A stretch of 64,000 bases of DNA, taken from the NCBI RefSeq assembly GCF_030294945.1, contig NZ_AP018448.1, forward strand, positions 9,520,501-9,584,500. Reading direction: 5' to 3'. A program made the translations under genes and the position numbers. Position 1 is the first letter of the stretch, and every line of letters begins with the position of its first letter. The notes under the pieces were generated by a model that saw only the letters and a list, made by a program, of their open reading frames with translations, did not search any database and was not told the origin of the DNA. The stretch is from Streptomyces graminofaciens (GTDB lineage Bacteria > Actinomycetota > Actinomycetes > Streptomycetales > Streptomycetaceae). Positions 5,108 to 13,224 of the stretch are shown piece by piece.

Positions 5108-5187
5108 GGCTGCGGGTCTGTGGGGGGCTGGTCGCGCCCACGCGGCGGAGCCGCGTATGTCACAGCCCCGCGCCCCCTACGGGGCGC
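5108..5187 (-). repeat. Dispersed Streptomyces intergenic repeat, copy 2
   Basis: Reverse-orientation copy of the element seen at 730-795: on the minus strand GCGCCCCGTAGGGGGCGCGG leads into GGGCGCGACCAGCC. The TAG inside it is the stop codon of the CitE-like gene at 5177-5179, so the element supplies that gene's end. Confidence 0.65.
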
Positions 5188-6007
5188 TTCTGCGGGCCAG
5201 AGCCATGGTGCGGTGGGCGCCTGCCACCACCGCCGGGTCGATGAAGTGGCCGTCGGGGAGAGCCTGGGCGCCGGGAGCGAGGGCCGCGGCGTCGATGATT
5301 TTCTCGGCCGACTCGATCTCTTGCTGGGTGGGGGCGTAGGTCTGTGCGATGAGAGGGAGCTGGCGGGGGTGGATCGCCGTGCGGCCGAGGAAGCCCAGGG
5401 CGCGGCCGTGGGCGCAGGAGTGGGCCAGGCCTTCCAGGTCCCGCACGTTCGGGTAGATCGACTGGGGCGGTGGCGGGAGAGCCGCGGCTCGGGCGGCCAC
5501 GATCACCCGGGCGCGGGGCCAGTCCAGGGCCGCGTCGTCGCGTGCGCCGAGGTCGGCGCGGAGGTCCGCCTCGCCGAGGGCGATGCCTCGCAGGGCCGGG
5601 TGGCAGGAGGCGATGTCGTAGGCCCGTTCCACGCCCAGGGCCGATTCGAGGAGGGCGTAGAGGGGCATGGCGCCGCCCTCGACGGGGGCGGACCGCTCCG
5701 CGACACGTACGACTTCGGCGGAGGTCGTGATCTTCGGGAGGCGGAGGCCCGAGAGGCCGGGGAGGGGGGAGAGGGCCTTGAGATCGGCCTCCGCGTGCGG
5801 GGTGTCCAGGGCGTTCATCCGTACGTGGACCGGGACGGGGGGAATGGTGGTGAGGAGTTCGGCTGTGGCCGCGCGGGCGTACTCCTTGCGGGCCGGCGGT
5901 ACCGCGTCCTCCAGGTCGACGATCACCACGTCGGCGCCGGATGTCAGGGCCTTGGCCACCACCTCCTGGCGGTCGCCGGGGGCGTACAGCCAGGTCAGCG
6001 GGATCAC
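5177..6007 (-). CDS. HpcH/HpaI-type CoA-ester lyase (CitE-like)
   Basis: Predicted TIM-barrel lyase of the CitE/citramalyl-CoA lyase superfamily, 276 residues. Family marks are VDLEDAVPPARK near the N-terminus (metal-site acidic residues and CoA contact), LLESALGV, GEADLRADLG, and RTAIHPRQ late in the barrel. These enzymes cleave or form C-C bonds of (hydroxy)acyl-CoA esters with Mg2+. It starts with GTG at 6007, overlapping the CoA-transferase stop by four bases, so it is the last gene of the minus-strand operon that also holds the ADPRH-family genes. Pairing with a CoA-transferase suggests activation of a carboxylic acid to its CoA ester followed by cleavage; the substrate is unknown. Confidence 0.85.
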   Translation of the reverse strand: MIPLTWLYAPGDRQEVVAKALTSGADVVIVDLEDAVPPARKEYARAATAELLTTIPPVPVHVRMNALDTPHAEADLKALSPLPGLSGLRLPKITTSAEVVRVAERSAPVEGGAMPLYALLESALGVERAYDIASCHPALRGIALGEADLRADLGARDDAALDWPRARVIVAARAAALPPPPQSIYPNVRDLEGLAHSCAHGRALGFLGRTAIHPRQLPLIAQTYAPTQQEIESAEKIIDAAALAPGAQALPDGHFIDPAVVAGAHRTMALARRSAP

Positions 6008-7203
6008 AGGGCGCCCTCCTCGCGGAGGGCCGCGATGTCCGTGTCCGTCAGGCCCAGTTCGGTGAGGATCGTGTCGGTGTCCGCGCCGTGCGCGCGGCCC
6101 GCCCAGCGGATGGCGCCGGGGGTGGCGGAGAGCCGGAAGAGGACGTTCTGCATGCGCAGCGGGCCGAGGTCGGGGTCGTCGACCGTGGTGATCGTGTCCA
6201 GGGCGCGGTACTGCGGGTCCGCCATCACGTCCCGTACGTCCTGGATGGGGGCGACCGCGGCCTCCGCCTTCTCGAACGCCTCGATGACCTCCTCACGGGT
6301 GTGACGGGCGATCCACGCGCCGACCGCCTCGTCCAGGACGTCCGTGTGGCGGGCCCGGTCCGCGCCCGTGGCGAACCACGGTTCGTCGATCAGCTCCGGT
6401 CTGCCCACCAGGCGCATCACCCGTTCCGCGATCGACTGCGCGGAGGTGGAGACCGCGACCCAGGTGCCGTCGGCGGTGCGGTACGTGTTGCGCGGCGCGT
6501 TGTTCGCGGAGCGGTTGCCCGTGCGGGGCTGGACGTGGCCGAGCTGGTCGTACCAGAGGGGCTGGGGGCCGAGGACCATGAGCATCGGCTCGATGATGGC
6601 CATGTCGACGACCTGGCCCTCGCCGGTGCGGTCGCGGGCGGTCAGGGCCGCCAGCACCGCGTACGCCGTCGTCAGGCCGGCGATCGAGTCGGCGAGGCCG
6701 AAGGGCGGGAGGACGGGCGGGGCGTCCGGTTCGCCGGTGATCGCGGCGAAGCCGCTCATCGCCTCGGCGAGCGTGCCGAAGCCGGGGCGGTGGGAGTACG
6801 GGCCGAACTGGCCGAAGCCGGTGACGCGGGCCAGGACCAGGCGGGGGTTCGCGGCGGAGAGTTCCTTCCAGCCGAGGCCCCACTTCTCCAGGGTGCCGGG
6901 GCGGAAGTTCTCGATGACCACATCGGCGGTGGTCGCGAGGCGGAGGAGGGTGTCGCGTCCGCCGGGGGTGGAGAGGTTCAGCGTCAGTGTGCGCTTGTTG
7001 CGGGCCAGCAGTTTCCACCACAGGCCCACACCGTCCTTCGACGGGCCGTGGCCCCGGGACGGGTCCGGCTTCGTGGGGTGCTCGACCTTGATGACCTCCG
7101 CGCCGAAGTCGCCGAGCATCGTGGCGGCGAGGGGGCCGGCGAAGAGGGTGGCGAGGTCCAGGACGCGGAGGTGGGTGAGCGGGGGGTCGTACACCTGAGT
7201 CAT
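6004..7203 (-). CDS. CaiB/BaiF family (class III) CoA-transferase
   Basis: Predicted CoA-transferase of 399 residues. The N-terminal motif LRVLDLATLFAGPLAA and GDFGAEVIKVEHP are the family CoA-binding start, and ENFRPGTLEKWGLGW is a typical class III segment. Such enzymes move CoA between carboxylic acids through aspartyl anhydride/thioester intermediates. ATG 7203 overlaps the stop of the upstream ADPRH-family gene (ATGA at 7200-7203), and its own stop overlaps the start of the CitE-like gene. This tight coupling argues that the three proteins act on one pathway. No sequence feature tells the acid substrate. Confidence 0.88.
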   Translation of the reverse strand: MTQVYDPPLTHLRVLDLATLFAGPLAATMLGDFGAEVIKVEHPTKPDPSRGHGPSKDGVGLWWKLLARNKRTLTLNLSTPGGRDTLLRLATTADVVIENFRPGTLEKWGLGWKELSAANPRLVLARVTGFGQFGPYSHRPGFGTLAEAMSGFAAITGEPDAPPVLPPFGLADSIAGLTTAYAVLAALTARDRTGEGQVVDMAIIEPMLMVLGPQPLWYDQLGHVQPRTGNRSANNAPRNTYRTADGTWVAVSTSAQSIAERVMRLVGRPELIDEPWFATGADRARHTDVLDEAVGAWIARHTREEVIEAFEKAEAAVAPIQDVRDVMADPQYRALDTITTVDDPDLGPLRMQNVLFRLSATPGAIRWAGRAHGADTDTILTELGLTDTDIAALREEGAL

Positions 7204-8711
7204 GAGTGGAGGCTCTCCCGGAAGGTGAGTCGGGCCAGCGCGTCGAAGCCGATGCCGTTGAAGTCGGCGATCGAGGTGGACAGGCGGTTCTTCAGGGGTG
7301 TCGTCCAGTGGTCCGGGAGTTTCTGCGGGGCGCCGGCGAGGATGCCCGCGATGCTGCCCGCCGTCGCGCCGTTGGAGTCGGTGTCCCAACCGCCCGACAC
7401 CGCGCGGCAGATGGAGGCCGTGAAGTCGCCGTCGGCGTGGGTGAGGGCGGCGGTGAGCAGGGCCGTGTTGGGGATGGCGTGGACCCAGTGGTGGTCGGCG
7501 TAGGTGGTGTGGAGTTCGTCGACGACCGTGTCGAAGTCGGTGTGGTCGCGGGCGAGCCGGAGGGCGTGGGCGACGGCCCTGGCCAGGCGGGAGTTCGGGG
7601 GGACGACGGTCAGGCCGGTGCGCAGGCAGTGGTGGATGTCGTGGGTGCCGGTGGCCGCCTCGGCGATGGTGGCGGCGATGTACATCGCCGCGTAGACGCC
7701 GTTGGCGGTGTGGGTGAGCGTGGCGTCCCTGTGGGCCTGCTCGGCCGCGGCCGCCGGGTCGCCGGGGTTGGTCCAGCCGTGGACGTCGGCGCGGATCAAG
7801 GCGCCGATCCATTCGCGGAAGGGGTTGCGGTGGCGGGCGGTGTGCGGGGGGTCGATGCCGGTGAGGAGGTTGCGGTAGGCGATGCGTTCGGCGGTGAAGG
7901 TGCGGCCGGCGGGGAGCTCGTCCAGCCAGAGGCGGGCCACGTCCGTGGTGGTGAAGCCGGGGCCGTGGCGTTGGAGGAGGAGGAGGTTGAGGAGGGGGTA
8001 GTTGAGGTCGTCGTCCTCGGGCATGCCGTCGATGTTCTCGGCGAGGGAGGTCTGTGCCGAGCGGCGGTTCCAGGGGTGGGCGTCCAGGAGCTCCGCGGGG
8101 ACGCCTCGGGCGGTGAACCAGGTGGTGAGGGGCCAGTTGCCGGTGGCCTGGGCGAGGTGGCGGATGGCGGTGAGGGGGAGTTTTTCCACGGGTTTGCCGA
8201 GGAGGCAGCCTGCGGCTCGGCCCAGCCAGGCGGCTTCCAGGCGCGCGAGGTGGGTGGCTGGGGTGGGTGGGTTCTCTTCGCCGAGCCCACCCCTTCCCGA
8301 AGCCGGGGGCTCCGCCCCCGGGGCCCCGGGGGGCGTGCTCACCGGCGGTGACAAGGTGCCGTCTCTCTTCGGGACGGGAGCCGGCCCGGCTGCACGACTG
8401 CCCGCGGACTGAGCAGCGGGGTCCGGCCAGGCTGGGCACAGTGCCCGGATCCTGTTCAGTTCCGTCGGCTCGGCGTCCGCCAACCCGCTCGGCAGGTCCG
8501 CCAGTTCGTCCAGCAGGTCCTCGGCCAGCTGGCGGAGGTAGCGGGAGGCCGGGCGGGGGGACGCGCCGGCGCGGAGGGGGGCCGGGGGGCCGCCCGCCGT
8601 CCGCCAGCGGGCTGCGATCGCCGAGGGCTCGCGGCCGTCCTGGGACGCCTGGTGGAGTTCGTGGCCCAGCAGGTCCTCCGGCTGGACCCAGGTGAGGCGC
8701 AGCCGGGTCAC
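7200..8711 (-). CDS. ADP-ribosylglycohydrolase family protein with N-terminal extension (paralogue A)
   Basis: 503 residues from GTG 8711, which overlaps the stop of the preceding gene (GTGA). Residues about 1-97 are an extra N-terminal region not present in the other paralogues; 98-152 are a Pro/Ala/Gly linker; 155-503 are the ADPRH (DraG/ARH) domain. The binuclear metal site looks intact: EDDD at 232-235 takes the place of the usual TDDT, and GGWDTDSNGATAG is the C-terminal Asp pair. The family hydrolyses ADP-ribose from proteins or small molecules, or related N-ribosides, with Mg2+. Part of the linker (near residues 131-137) is coded by a palindromic intergenic-type repeat. Substrate unknown. 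Confidence 0.82.
   Translation of the reverse strand: MTRLRLTWVQPEDLLGHELHQASQDGREPSAIAARWRTAGGPPAPLRAGASPRPASRYLRQLAEDLLDELADLPSGLADAEPTELNRIRALCPAWPDPAAQSAGSRAAGPAPVPKRDGTLSPPVSTPPGAPGAEPPASGRGGLGEENPPTPATHLARLEAAWLGRAAGCLLGKPVEKLPLTAIRHLAQATGNWPLTTWFTARGVPAELLDAHPWNRRSAQTSLAENIDGMPEDDDLNYPLLNLLLLQRHGPGFTTTDVARLWLDELPAGRTFTAERIAYRNLLTGIDPPHTARHRNPFREWIGALIRADVHGWTNPGDPAAAAEQAHRDATLTHTANGVYAAMYIAATIAEAATGTHDIHHCLRTGLTVVPPNSRLARAVAHALRLARDHTDFDTVVDELHTTYADHHWVHAIPNTALLTAALTHADGDFTASICRAVSGGWDTDSNGATAGSIAGILAGAPQKLPDHWTTPLKNRLSTSIADFNGIGFDALARLTFRESLHS
8303..8321. repeat. Palindromic Streptomyces repeat within the ADPRH-A linker
   Basis: CCGGGGGC-TCC-GCCCCCGG, an 8-bp perfect inverted repeat of a kind common between Streptomyces genes. 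Here it is in frame inside the low-complexity linker of the ADPRH-family gene at 7200-8711. Confidence 0.6.
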
Positions 8712-9878
8712 CGGGAGGCCGCCAGGGTGGTGAAAGCCGCCTCGTGGGCCCGGCGGCGGGCCACGTCCTGTGCGTGGATCTCGCGGGCGACCTCCGTCAG
8801 GGTCGCCGCCGGGGCGTGCAGGTCGAGGCGGCTCGCCTCCGCCACCGTCTTCGCCCAGTCCGCCGGGATCTCCGAGCCCAGCGCGCCCGCGACGGCGCCG
8901 GACATCGTGGCGATGGAGTCGCAGTCGCGGCCGTAGTTCACCGAGCCGAGGACCGCGTGGCGGTAGTCGCCGCGGGCCACCAGCAACATGCCCAACGCGA
9001 TGGGGAGTTCCTCGATCGCGTGGACGCGGGAGGGGCGGCGGGCGCCCAGCGACGGGGCTCGGTAGTCGGGGCCCACCGTGTCGTACGCCGCCACCGCCTC
9101 GCGGAGCGGCCGCAGTGCCGACTCGAAGTCCGAGTAGCGGGACGCCACTTCGCACACCGTCTCGATCGCCGCGCGCGTGCCGTCCTTCGCCAGCGCCACG
9201 CAGGTCTCGATCACCGACTCCGCCGTCGCCCCCGGCACGCACGCCGCCGCCACCGCCGCCGCGAAGACACCGGCCGCCTCCCTGCCGTACGACGACTGGT
9301 GGGCGCCCGCGAGGTCGAGGGCCTCGGCGTACGCGCCCGCCGGGTTGGCCGCGTTGACCAGGCCGACCGGGGCCATGTACATCGCGGCGCCGCAGTTGAC
9401 GATGTTTCCGGTGCCGGCCTCGCGGGGGTCGATGTGGCCGTAGTGGAGACGGGCCACGAGCCACTTCTCGGCGAGGAACACCCGGTGCAGGGGGAGGGCT
9501 TCCGCCTCCAGCTCCGGGATCCAGCGCGGGGTCGTCATCATGTCCGGCACCAGGTGCTCGGCGATCGCGTACGCGTCCAGGTGGTCGCGGACGCGGTCGT
9601 AGACCCGTACCAGCGCATGGGTCATCAACGTGTCGTCGGTGACGTGGCCGTCGCCCTTGTGGTACGGGGCGATGGGGCGGGCCGTGCGCCAGTCGTCGCC
9701 GTTCCAGGGGCCGACGACGCCGTGGACGCGGCCGCCGTGGCGCTCGGCGATCTGGTCGGGGGAGTAGCCCTCGACGGGGCCGCCGAGCGCGTCGCCGACG
9801 GCGGCCCCGACGAGGGCGCCGGTGATGCGTTCCTCGAGAGTCGCGGAGGAAGTTGTTAGTTTGTTCGGATTTGCTCAC
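8708..9878 (-). CDS. ADP-ribosylglycohydrolase family protein (paralogue B), start unresolved or frameshifted
   Basis: The conserved reading frame is open from 9874 down to the stop at 8708 and codes a full ADPRH domain: GALVGAAVGDALGG, then GHVTDDTLMTH (first metal site), and VNYGRDCDSIATM (second metal site). However, between the upstream in-frame TGA (9875-9877) and TTG 9626-9628/ATG 9625 there is no ATG, GTG or TTG. Starting at ATG 9625 would delete both the N-terminal helix and the TDDT site. A GTG at 9878 opens a short frame (SKSEQTNN) that joins the conserved frame only after a +1 shift near 9845-9860. So the gene is either disrupted by one base, misassembled, or read through recoding. 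The interval given includes GTG 9878. The family assignment is secure; the integrity is not. Confidence 0.7.
9852..9878. promoter_or_regulatory. AT-rich repeats, possible operator at the paralogue C/B junction
   Basis: An unusually AT-rich patch with three loosely repeated T-rich units (GTTGTTAG, TTTGTTCG, ATTTGCTC) lies exactly where paralogue B lacks a clean start. Direct repeats of this kind resemble DeoR-type operators, but I cannot assign a regulator. It may mark a promoter internal to the operon. Confidence 0.25.
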
Positions 9879-9898
9879 ATAGGAGTATCATGCCCGAA

Positions 9899-11134
9899 TC
9901 ACCCATCGGGCGTGGCGAGTTCTGTCGCAGCGAGCAGTTCGGCGAGGTGTACGAGGTCGGTGCCCGTGAGGCGGGGGAGGGCGCAGCCGGAGAGGGTGCG
10001 GCAGGCTTCCCGCCAGGTGTCGGGGATCGCGGCGCCGCCGCCGAGCGCGCCGGTCAGGGCGCCGGCGAGGGCCGGGGCGGAGTCGGCGACCCGGGAGAGG
10101 CAGGCGGCGGCGGGGACGGCCTCGGCGATCCGGCCGCGGGCGGCGGTGGCGAGCGCCAGGGCCACGGGGACGGTCTCGGCGGCCGCGATGCCATAGCTGT
10201 AGACGTGGTCGACGATCTGGTGTTCGAGGAGGGGGATGAGGGCGAACGTGCCTTCCTTCCGGTGCCGTTGGGCGAGGTCCAGCGCGTGGCGGGCGTTGCG
10301 GCCGATCTCCGTCTCCTCGGGGAGTTCGGCGAGCGCCGCCGCCGCGCAGTCGTCGACGTCCGCGCCCGCGAGGGCGAGCGCGAGGGCCGCCGCCATCGCG
10401 CGGGCGCCGTGCACACCGTCGCCGTCCTGGGTGTAGCGGGCGTCGAACTCGGCCAGCTCGGCGGCCAGTCGCGGGTCGCCGGGGTGGGCGATGGCCAGCA
10501 CACAGGCCCGTACGCAGGCCGCGTCGTCGAAGTAGTGCGGGTTGTCGTGGCCGGTGGCGGGCGGGCGCAGCCCGGTGGCGAGGTTGCCGAGTCCGGCGCG
10601 TACGGAGATCCGGGCGCGCAGCGGCAGTACGGCGGACTCGACCTCGGGGGCGCGTTCGGCGGCCGCCGCGATCTCGCTGGCCACGGCGTTCCAGGAGAGG
10701 TCGATCGAGGCGCGGGTGCGGCGCTCCAGGCTCAGGTCGCCGAGCGCCGCCGCGTCCCCGGCGCGCAGTACGGCCTCCGCCGCGAACGCCGCCCACTCCG
10801 CGTCGTCGGACGGGCCGAGCCGCAGAGGCTCGGGCGGCTGGTTGAGGGCGATCGGCACGGGGAGTGTCGTGGTCGCGTTCTGCTCGGCGAAGGTGTCGAG
10901 TTCGCGGGTGAGGCGCCGGGTCCACTCCGGCATGCGTGCGGCCCGGTGCCGGCCGGCCGGCCACCCGGCGGCGTCGCCCGCCGCGAGCCCGAGGAGGAGG
11001 CCCTCGATACGGCGGGGGTGAGGGGTCTTCGCATCCTCGCCTCTGGGCAACAGCCCTTCGGCCGCCGGGATTTCCAGGGGCGCGGGTCCGCCCGACTCGT
11101 ACTCGGACAGCTCGCCCGTCAGCGCCGGATTCAC
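9899..11134 (-). CDS. Degenerate ADP-ribosylglycohydrolase family protein (paralogue C)
   Basis: 411 residues from GTG 11134, which overlaps the stop of paralogue D (GTGA at 11131-11134); a GGAGG-like site lies upstream. The fold is recognisable: RRIEGLLLGLAAGDAAGWPAG at the N-terminus, SDDAEW in place of TDDTEY, and ALAGALTGALGG at the C-terminus. The second metal motif, GRDADT in the sibling protein D, reads SRVADS here, so one of its two aspartates is a valine. The protein may bind one metal only, or be a non-catalytic partner of the other paralogues. About 20 bp separate its stop from the GTG at 9878. Confidence 0.75.
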   Translation of the reverse strand: MNPALTGELSEYESGGPAPLEIPAAEGLLPRGEDAKTPHPRRIEGLLLGLAAGDAAGWPAGRHRAARMPEWTRRLTRELDTFAEQNATTTLPVPIALNQPPEPLRLGPSDDAEWAAFAAEAVLRAGDAAALGDLSLERRTRASIDLSWNAVASEIAAAAERAPEVESAVLPLRARISVRAGLGNLATGLRPPATGHDNPHYFDDAACVRACVLAIAHPGDPRLAAELAEFDARYTQDGDGVHGARAMAAALALALAGADVDDCAAAALAELPEETEIGRNARHALDLAQRHRKEGTFALIPLLEHQIVDHVYSYGIAAAETVPVALALATAARGRIAEAVPAAACLSRVADSAPALAGALTGALGGGAAIPDTWREACRTLSGCALPRLTGTDLVHLAELLAATELATPDG

Positions 11135-12228
11135 GGCCGTACCTCCTCCTCTTCGTTCACGGTCAGTGCGTACGCGGCCGGATCCCGGCCTGCCCGGTCG
11201 CCGGTCGGCGGGCCCGTGACCCACTTGCCGGACTCGTCGGGGGTGAGCAACTCGGCGACGTCCAGGACGTGATGGCCCGCCATGGAGGGCAGGCAGCTGC
11301 CTCGCGCCGGGCCGATCGCGGCGGTCCACTCGGGCGGGATGGACGATGCGCCCCGGGTCGCGCCGGCCAGGGCGCCCGCGACGGCGGCGGTCGTGTCGGC
11401 GTCGCGGCCCATGTTCACCGCCGTGAGGACCGACTCGGTGAAGTCGCCGTCGGCCGCCGCGTACGCGCCGAAGGCGAGGGCGACGGCCTCGGGGGCCAGG
11501 TCGGTCCAGGGGTAGCCGCCGACGACGACCGCGGAACGGACCGCGCGTTCGCCCCGGTGGGCGACGGCCACCGCGCGGCGCAGGGAGCGGGCCGTCCAGG
11601 AGTCGTCGGGGACGACGGCGAGGGCGGAGGCCACCACCGCGATCGTCGGCGCGCCCGCCATGGCCGCCGCCACGCCCGCGGCGACCGCCTGGCCGCCGTA
11701 GATGCCCTCGCCGTCGTGGCTCACCGAGCCGTCGACGGCGACCAGCCGTGCCGCCTCCGCCGGGCGGCCGGACGCGAAGACGCCGAAGGGGGCCGCGCGC
11801 ATGGCCAGGCCGTCGCTCCAGGCGTGGCGGTGCTGGGCGGAGATGGGAGCGGCGAGACCCCGGCGCAGGTTCTCCAGCGTGCCGCGCTCGCTGAAGCCCG
11901 CCCCTCGGAACGGGCCCTCGTCGAGGTCCGCGATCCACTGGTGCCAGGCCGTCTCCACATGCGCGACCGTGAGCGCCGAGCCGTGCCGGGCCAGCAGCAG
12001 CCCCGAGAAGATGGCGTACTCGGTGTCGTCCGTGCCCGACGGGTGCTCGGCCACGTACCCGGTGATGCGCCCCCAGCGCGCCCGGATCTCGGACGGTTTC
12101 ATGTTCTCCGCGGGCGCCCCCAGCGCGTCCCCGACGGCGAGCCCGAGCATGGCCCCGCGTGCCCGCTCGCGGAGATCGGCGGCGTCCCCCGGCGCCGGGG
12201 TCGAGGGAATGCAGGCGATGGAAGGCAT
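11131..12228 (-). CDS. ADP-ribosylglycohydrolase family protein (paralogue D)
   Basis: 365 residues, first gene of the minus-strand operon. The domain fills most of the protein: RARGAMLGLAVGDALGAPAE at about residues 22-41, GTDDTEYAIF as the first metal site, and VNMGRDADTTAAVAGAL as the second, so all expected Mg2+ ligands are present. ATG 12228 has an AGAGG ribosome-binding site. It is divergent from the VIT-type gene, with 267 bp between them holding the presumed operon promoter. It is the most canonical of the four paralogues and the best guess for a working hydrolase. ADP-ribosyl-arginine, O-acetyl-ADP-ribose or an N-riboside are possible substrates by family; none can be chosen from sequence. 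Confidence 0.85.
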   Translation of the reverse strand: MPSIACIPSTPAPGDAADLRERARGAMLGLAVGDALGAPAENMKPSEIRARWGRITGYVAEHPSGTDDTEYAIFSGLLLARHGSALTVAHVETAWHQWIADLDEGPFRGAGFSERGTLENLRRGLAAPISAQHRHAWSDGLAMRAAPFGVFASGRPAEAARLVAVDGSVSHDGEGIYGGQAVAAGVAAAMAGAPTIAVVASALAVVPDDSWTARSLRRAVAVAHRGERAVRSAVVVGGYPWTDLAPEAVALAFGAYAAADGDFTESVLTAVNMGRDADTTAAVAGALAGATRGASSIPPEWTAAIGPARGSCLPSMAGHHVLDVAELLTPDESGKWVTGPPTGDRAGRDPAAYALTVNEEEEVRP

Positions 12229-12477
12229 ACGGTCGCCTCTCTGGCCCTGGAGCCTGTCCGGCTCCGGGGGCTCTCCGGCCCTATGGACAGTTGATCCGCT
12301 CTGAGGATTTCTCTGTGAAGATCTCTGCCACATCGGGCGCCCCACCGGCCCCCGGAACGCCCTCGTATCACCCGGTCGACATCTGTGCAGGGTCATGTAC
12401 GAATGAGCGGCAACGGTTTCTCGAACAGCTGTGAACCCAGGTAAGTACGGCCTTCCTTGCTGGCAGAAGCGATTTTC

Positions 12478-12491
12478 CGAGCGTACGTTCG
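12478..12491. promoter_or_regulatory. Imperfect palindrome just before the VIT-type gene
   Basis: CGAGCGTACGTTCG, matching its reverse complement at 12 of 14 positions, ends 4 bases before the ATG at 12496. Its position would block initiation if bound by a repressor. The rest of the 12229-12495 intergenic space shows nothing else I can name. Confidence 0.35.
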
Positions 12492-12495
12492 AGAT

Positions 12496-13224
12496 ATGGC
12501 ACTCATCGACACCGAAGCCCCACTGCACGAGGCGCACCGCGACAACCACACCCACCGTGATGTGAACGGTGGTTGGCTGCGGCCCGCCGTCTTCGGAGCG
12601 ATGGACGGGCTCGTGTCCAACCTGGCGCTGATGACCGGTGTCGCGGGCGGGGCGGTCGGACGGCAGGGGATCGTCATCGCCGGGCTCGCGGGCCTCGCCG
12701 CCGGGGCCTTCTCCATGGCGGCCGGCGAATACACCTCCGTGGCCTCGCAGCGCGAACTCGTGGAGGCCGAACTCGACGTCGAACGACGGGAGTTGCGTAA
12801 GCACCCGAAGGACGAGGAGAAGGAACTGGCCGCGCTCTACGTGTCCCGCGGCGTCGAGCCGAAGCTCGCCCGTGAGGTCGCGCGGCAGCTCTCCCACGAT
12901 CCCGAGCAGGCCCTGGAGATCCATGCCCGCGAGGAGCTGGGCATCGATCCCGGCGACCTGCCCTCGCCGGCCGTCGCCGCCGTCTCCTCCTTCGGCGCGT
13001 TCGCGCTCGGCGCGCTGCTGCCCGTGCTGCCGTATCTCCTCGGCGCGGGCGCGCTGTGGCCCGCCCTGCTGGTGGCGCTCGTCGGGCTGTTCCTGTGCGG
13101 CGCGCTCGTGGCCCGGGTGACGGCGCGCACCTGGTGGTTCAGCGGGCTGCGACAGCTCGCCCTCGGAGGTGCGGCGGCGGGTGTGACGTACGCCCTGGGC
13201 ACGTTGTTCGGTGCGGCCGTATGA
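12496..13224 (+). CDS. VIT1/CCC1-type iron/manganese transporter family protein
   Basis: 242-residue membrane protein of the vacuolar-iron-transporter family. The signature DGLVSNLALMTGVAGG in the first helix pair and MAAGEYTSVASQRE at the end of the second are clear. A soluble acidic middle (VERRELRKHPKDEEKELAAL to LGIDPGDLPSP) fits the metal-binding domain, followed by three C-terminal membrane segments. ATG 12496 was chosen over an upstream TTG because it starts the conserved region; the ribosome-binding site is weak. In bacteria the family exports Fe2+ or Mn2+; direction and metal are inferred. It is alone on the plus strand, divergent from the ADPRH operon. Confidence 0.85.
   Translation: MALIDTEAPLHEAHRDNHTHRDVNGGWLRPAVFGAMDGLVSNLALMTGVAGGAVGRQGIVIAGLAGLAAGAFSMAAGEYTSVASQRELVEAELDVERRELRKHPKDEEKELAALYVSRGVEPKLAREVARQLSHDPEQALEIHAREELGIDPGDLPSPAVAAVSSFGAFALGALLPVLPYLLGAGALWPALLVALVGLFLCGALVARVTARTWWFSGLRQLALGGAAAGVTYALGTLFGAAV

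Follow-up and report, generated by a model that had tools for sequence, protein, structure and literature searches.

What might four genes of the ADP-ribosylglycohydrolase (ADPRH) family be doing in a row ahead of a CoA-transferase and a CoA-ester lyase? Such a block is found in a 64,000-nucleotide stretch of the Streptomyces graminofaciens genome (contig NZ_AP018448.1, positions 9,520,501 to 9,584,500; hereafter, the window), where it occupies positions 5177-12228 of the minus strand; the genome as a whole is 11.6 Mb long and consists of a single contig. We denote the four ADPRH-family genes A to D, the CoA-transferase CaiB and the lyase CitE, and the genes that join them in other genomes RK (ribokinase), LacI (regulator), PermF and PermG (ABC permeases), SBP (solute-binding protein) and X (a gene of ~640 amino acids). 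The answer that we favor, giving it about an even chance, is that the block is a trimmed Streptomyces form of an actinobacterial ribose-conjugate operon, in which hydrolysis of ribosyl bonds and an acid branch leading to acetyl-CoA would make up one pathway.

The evidence for this answer comes in the first place from other genomes. That the genes belong together, as a preliminary description of the window had supposed, is borne out by a co-occurrence search of actinobacterial genomes, also outside Streptomyces: other families carry the block with unchanged gene order, at 41-72% identity and between different flanks, so it is not a chance assembly. In a class-wide sample of 148 genomes, D has relatives in other families at 57-62% identity, in addition to weaker ones. 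Among the 13 loci of these relatives (L070-L082), 10 are complete in the order A-B-C-D-RK-CaiB-CitE, two (L076, L082) are cut by contig ends and one (L071) consists of A-D without RK, CaiB and CitE. Wherever the contig extends far enough upstream of A, it carries LacI, PermF, PermG and SBP; family models identified these genes in L074, gene order in other loci. In L074, the one locus tested, RK scores above the TIGR02152 ribokinase cut-off (307.7 vs 299.65), and the regulator is nearest to RbsR, yet under the corresponding cut-off (198 vs 531). It is the joint presence of the regulator, the importer, a family of ribosyl-bond hydrolases and a ribokinase that suggests a ribose-conjugate catabolic operon, and this set is found in full form elsewhere and incomplete at the window locus.

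How constant is this composition? A profile built from ten non-Streptomyces B proteins yielded 100 loci, of which the best 80 were analyzed, five of them from Streptomyces; some of the 80 are the same contigs as loci of the previous kind, and the two sets are not independent. Counting any match, including distant ones in L166 and L167 and fragments, A and (by construction) B are present in 80 loci, C in 78, D in 77, LacI in 72, PermF and PermG in 75 each, SBP in 74, RK in 66, CaiB in 37, CitE in 36 and X in 9. A recount that demanded at least half of each gene, on the base of the 77 loci with A-D (selected via B), found LacI, PermF, PermG and SBP together upstream in 71, RK downstream in 64 (L133 has only a fragment), CaiB with CitE in 36, X in 8 and all eleven genes in 26, with zero exceptions to gene order and strand across the 77 loci. 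Full operons are exemplified by Jiangella, Microbispora and Microtetraspora, and one locus (L116) has CaiB and not CitE. From these genome comparisons the operon appears to be widespread in actinobacteria but unstudied; a literature search of titles and abstract openings found no paper on this gene combination. Gene X (6687-8609 in L074, and relatives) encodes 640 amino acids and lies between RK and CaiB in Jiangellaceae-type loci; a C-terminal FGE-sulfatase domain is the only Pfam domain found in it, and its N-terminal part is of unknown kind. Weak structure matches that would make X a glycosidase barrel/FGE protein were given no weight, the predicted model being poor (mean pLDDT 54.5).

At the window locus, the regulator, the importer and RK are all absent. 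The nearest RK in the window genome is 44% identical and sits in an rbs-type cluster, and the nearest SBP, 62% identical to that of locus L125, lies beside PermF and PermG genes 5.7 Mb away. In a first sample, 26 of 37 Streptomyces genomes, counting the window genome, gave a match to B with an E-value of at most 1e-170, and B was not detected in any of 24 genomes outside the genus; the best relatives of B are from Streptomyces, the top one from S. adelaidensis (97%). Most Streptomyces loci hold the block between VIT1/gltB and lgt, and the VIT1-family gene of the window (12457..13224, plus strand) is a neighbor of the locus outside the operon. Our Streptomyces comparison covers 34 loci from 32 genomes (L049, L068 and L069 come from a single genome). 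Both D and CaiB are held by 30 of these loci; RK lies between them, in a gap of 0.9-1.3 kb, in 19 of the 30 and is missing from the other 11, and at the same site the window has the ATGA junction of D and CaiB (7200..7203, minus strand). LacI and SBP are kept in three of the 34 loci (L059, L125, L126), all without RK, and in L125 and L126 the regulator and the importer stand between VIT1 and A, at the shared gltB/lgt site. Since a few Streptomyces loci still keep the regulator and importer at the equivalent site and many keep RK, the window locus is best read, by comparison of gene content, as a trimmed form of the larger operon. Two genomes depart from the common arrangement in other ways. 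In one, a Streptomyces (G012), the operon is found in three places, with A beside gltB/VIT1, B-C 1.7 Mb away and a D-ribokinase piece 38 kb from B-C; in another (G010), the copy L065 is decaying, with B not found, D represented by two matches in different frames and CitE by a partial match.

What, then, can be said of the four hydrolases themselves? The preliminary description had reported six minus-strand genes, nearly all of them overlapping, with four ADPRH paralogs in a row whose metal sites differ in integrity, and these points hold: the coordinates are correct, and the genes overlap by exactly 4 bases at four of the five junctions (GTGA for A/B, C/D and CaiB/CitE, ATGA for D/CaiB), B/C being the sole junction without overlap. 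All four proteins score from 121 to 198 bits with PF03747, well above the gathering score of 26.2 bits: A (11131..12228, minus strand; 365 amino acids) at 198.4 bits, B (9899..11134, minus strand; a divergent member of 411 amino acids) at 121.3, C (8708..9874, minus strand, 5' end approximate; an open frame of 388 codons) at 163.1, and D (7200..8711, minus strand; 503 amino acids with a conserved N-terminal extension) at 173.4. Downstream of the stop at 9875-9877, the frame of C has no interruption, yet its first ATG, GTG or TTG is the TTG at 9628. All 11 Streptomyces relatives that were inspected have an ATG in this frame close to where B ends, and the window genome may differ by a genuine change, an unconventional start codon or an error in the sequence. 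Both Asp-rich motifs of the PF03747 two-metal site, which we take to be metal-binding, are present in A, C and D. They read GTDDTE and GRDADT in A (TDDTE and GRDADT intact in the window), TDDT and GRDxDS in C (DCDS in the window), and PEDDD and GGWDTDS in D (EDDD and DTDS), and are invariant across 11, 10 and 10 aligned rows, respectively. In B, the window sequence has SDDA and VADS, so that the first Asp of DxD[S/T] is missing; this Asp is lost in all 12 aligned B orthologs, which keep DDAE and ADS and in which GHDNPH-(H/Y)-FDDAA and HVYSYG are invariant. Given that the altered metal site is shared by all 12 rows and that motifs elsewhere are invariant, B is, on the alignment, a protein under constraint rather than a decaying one. 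For the B ortholog of L079, structure prediction gives a fold like that of DraG and ARH3, at modest confidence (pLDDT 76; TM about 0.5-0.6).

A phylogenetic tree of 47 rows resolves B (100/100), C (100/99) and D (100/100) as single clades that span families, and A as one clade for 10 of its 11 rows (100/98), with A and B joined at 95/92. Of the nine PF03747 matches in the window genome, A-D make up four; two of the other five entered the tree as script-extracted sequences and were disregarded, their branches being very long and their frames possibly incorrect, and the remaining three were not recovered. By the evidence of this tree, each of the four paralogs is ancient, and A and B are sisters. 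A-B pairs without C are found beside other sugar importers (L166, L167, L084). In two of these loci (L166 8973-11038, L167 8907-11035), the pair belongs to an operon with an RpiR regulator, a SIS-domain protein, a BadF-type kinase and a different ABC importer. The idea, put forward in the preliminary description, that the paralogs form a multi-subunit enzyme thus gains some support for A and B, sister clades that remain adjacent in different operons and of which one has a conserved but altered site. The same A-B operons could suggest that the substrate is an amino-sugar conjugate or some furanoside other than a riboside, and that the ribokinase-like enzyme phosphorylates its sugar. A binder of arabino-oligosaccharides does appear among the many relatives of SBP (the best 60 with solved structures bind various sugars and oligosaccharides), but RK exceeds the ribokinase equivalog cut-off and the regulator is nearest to RbsR in the locus tested, and we consider this possibility improbable.

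Could A-D instead remove ADP-ribose from modified proteins or nucleic acids, in the manner of DraG/ARH-like signaling, with the metabolic neighbors being incidental? DraG-type motifs are kept in A and C, and DraG structures are those to which A aligns best. In published lists, SCO2028-SCO2031 of S. coelicolor are uncharacterized DraG/ARH homologs and possible ADP-ribosyl hydrolases (PMC9411070), and three of the four genes are also listed in PMC5087735. However, the scores are far under the DraG equivalog cut-off (TIGR02662, 337 bits) for A (80.3), C (47) and D (19.7), with no match of B at E 0.001, and A-D fall far under the Tri1 equivalog cut-off too, whereas A-D are constantly accompanied by an ABC importer, a ribokinase and CoA enzymes. 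Furthermore, purified SCO2028 and SCO2030, which by numbering would correspond to A and C, were inactive on U-ADP-ribose, the one substrate concerned (PMC13036486). Taken together, these observations make reversal of ADP-ribosylation an improbable role for A-D. An anti-phage or other defense role was considered as well and set aside, A-D having no PADLOC match at E 0.01.

The acid branch poses a separate problem. CaiB (6004..7203, minus strand) is a family III CoA-transferase of 399 amino acids (PF02515, CoA_transf_3, 418.5 bits), and CitE (5177..6007, minus strand) is a CitE/RipC-like CoA-ester lyase of 276 amino acids (PF03328, HpcH_HpaI, 116.4 bits). Asp172 of CaiB, presumably the catalytic position, is found in all 75 rows labelled operon and all 25 standalone rows aligned to solved relatives, and Arg63, Glu121 and Asp148 of CitE, which we assume to be active-site positions, in all 72 and all 18, respectively, although some genes are represented by two rows and the CitE of L067 in the operon set is not from the operon. 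The nearest models, those of succinate-glutarate and formyl-CoA transferases for CaiB and of RipC (153 bits vs a cut-off of 375) and citE for CitE, are all matched under their cut-offs. Beyond X and the genes named so far, the operons contain no further conserved gene class, such as a hydratase accompanying CaiB-CitE, and accordingly, the acid is perhaps already hydroxylated.

Does this pair belong to the same pathway as A-D? In the 148-genome sample, B is present in 23 genomes and close CaiB in 34, namely in 23 of the 23 B-positive and 11 of the 125 B-negative genomes (Fisher p 5e-19, an overstatement given that related species are not independent). One of the 11 (G065) is an operon cut by the contig end. 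Among 31 of the 35 genomes without strong B in the first sample, 7 of which are also among the 148, close CaiB is found in only two, the decaying operon of G010 and a case (G032) in which an ADPRH-family fragment precedes CaiB at the start of the contig; in addition, CaiB-CitE follow D or RK in constant order in several families. All this counts against the view that the operon combines two modules, with A-D, RK and the importer acting on a sugar conjugate and CaiB-CitE on an unrelated acid, e.g. malate or citramalate. That alternative, which we deem unlikely although it deserves serious weight, draws its strength from the other contexts of the pair. No CaiB-CitE is found in the operon of any Nonomuraea locus fetched, some of these contigs being short, and the pair is missing from the operons of some other loci. 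A search for displaced copies in fifteen genomes, 11 without the pair in the operon and 4 with it, detected CaiB (60-67% identity) and CitE (42-56%) elsewhere in the genome in 11 of the 11, adjacent in 10 and apart in a Streptosporangium genome (G205). A homologous regulator (GntR/FCD in the one case tested) stands beside ten of the standalone pairs, and a DctM-like (TRAP) gene beside three. Where B is absent, the close CaiB of several genomes lies near PrpD-, cyclase-, TcuA- or amidohydrolase-like genes, as labelled by BLAST. Such surroundings point to a function in organic-acid metabolism. Recurrent CaiB clusters of B-negative actinobacteria with cyclase-, PrpD-, mostly amidohydrolase- and CitE-like genes (L193, L195, L199, L201, L202) perhaps represent another organic-acid pathway; in a Jiangella cluster with a CaiB copy, one gene scores above one TcuA cut-off (474 vs 369) and under another (231 vs 373). 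Thus, the acid branch appears to be tied to the operon by order and co-occurrence, yet it is separable.

If the single pathway is nevertheless assumed, the full operon might work as follows. A LacI-type repressor would control an ABC sugar importer for a ribosylated compound; A, C and D would hydrolyze the ribosyl bonds of the imported compound, with B probably being a modified partner of A; ribokinase would turn the released ribose into ribose-5-phosphate; CaiB would put CoA on the freed acid; and CitE would cleave the resulting CoA-ester into a keto acid and acetyl-CoA, the acid most likely being a hydroxy-dicarboxylate. Gene content, gene order, conservation, co-occurrence and the invariance of catalytic positions are observed, whereas the substrate, the sequence of reactions, the pairing of A with B in a heteromer and the supply of acetyl-CoA are inferred from them. 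Several facts weigh against this scheme. RK is missing not only from 11 of the 30 Streptomyces loci, among them all three that keep LacI and SBP, but also from 13 of the 77 A-D loci (five Streptomyces loci are common to both sets). CaiB-CitE are separable, related pairs occurring with the GntR-type regulator and TRAP DctM or with PrpD/cyclase/TcuA-like genes, and may act on an unrelated acid; the 10 CaiB-positive, B-negative genomes other than G065 count against strict linkage. The presence of the A-B pair in RpiR/SIS/BadF-kinase sugar operons implies that the substrate need not be a riboside, none of the best 60 SBP relatives with solved structures is named for ribose, and we know of no natural ribosyl-hydroxyacid that would fit. 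The proposal in the preliminary description that the operon degrades a ribosylated carboxylate accordingly fares unevenly: RK, the RbsR-like LacI and the sugar importer of the fuller forms are in its favor, as is the tracking of the operon by close CaiB, whereas the detachable CaiB-CitE and the organic-acid clusters of related pairs are not; for the added wording that such a compound might be "reversed", there is nothing in support. At the far end of what these data might suggest, and with considerable doubt, ribosylated hydroxy-acids could be an unrecognized class of nutrients that many soil actinobacteria import, with ADPRH-fold ribosidases, A among them with an obligate metal-deficient partner B, and with CaiB-CitE burning the acid half.

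Why would this matter? Proteins of the ADPRH family are commonly regarded as erasers of ADP-ribosylation. How many of their genes Streptomyces has was interpreted as a hint of lively ADP-ribosylation metabolism (PMC5087735). Should four of the nine ADPRH-family genes of the window genome be catabolic, that inference would change. The full operon also supplies a solute-binding protein and a regulator whose ligand would directly reveal the substrate, and the idea of a heteromeric ADPRH enzyme could be put to the test with the conserved A-B pair.

How does the operon compare with known systems? Like A-D, SCO2028-SCO2031 are four consecutively numbered ADPRH genes, a correspondence by count and numbering only; the published accounts, in their available portions, give no operon, importer or ribokinase, and no mention of SCO2032 or SCO2033 was found in the literature searched. 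With DraG, ARH1 and ARH3, the paralogs share the PF03747 family, both Asp-rich motifs in A, C and D and, by prediction for a B ortholog, the fold, but they differ in falling far under the DraG and Tri1 cut-offs, in residing in importer/kinase operons and in the lack of one Asp in B. A CoA-transferase and a lyase that act on malate or citramalate are a known scheme (PMC8307300, PMC4682846). Such pairs of a citramalate/malate CoA-transferase and a citramalyl-CoA lyase, and itaconate degradation (Rip), share this transferase-lyase pairing with CaiB-CitE, whereas the present operon has no conserved hydratase gene and its CitE scores 153 with RipC against 375. With ribose and riboside utilization operons (rbs; Bacteroides rus), a LacI-type regulator, an ABC importer, ribokinase and ribosyl-bond hydrolases are in common, but here, an SBP_bac_1-type importer, which we take to be CUT1, stands in place of RbsABC, the hydrolases are four ADPRH paralogs, and CaiB-CitE are added.

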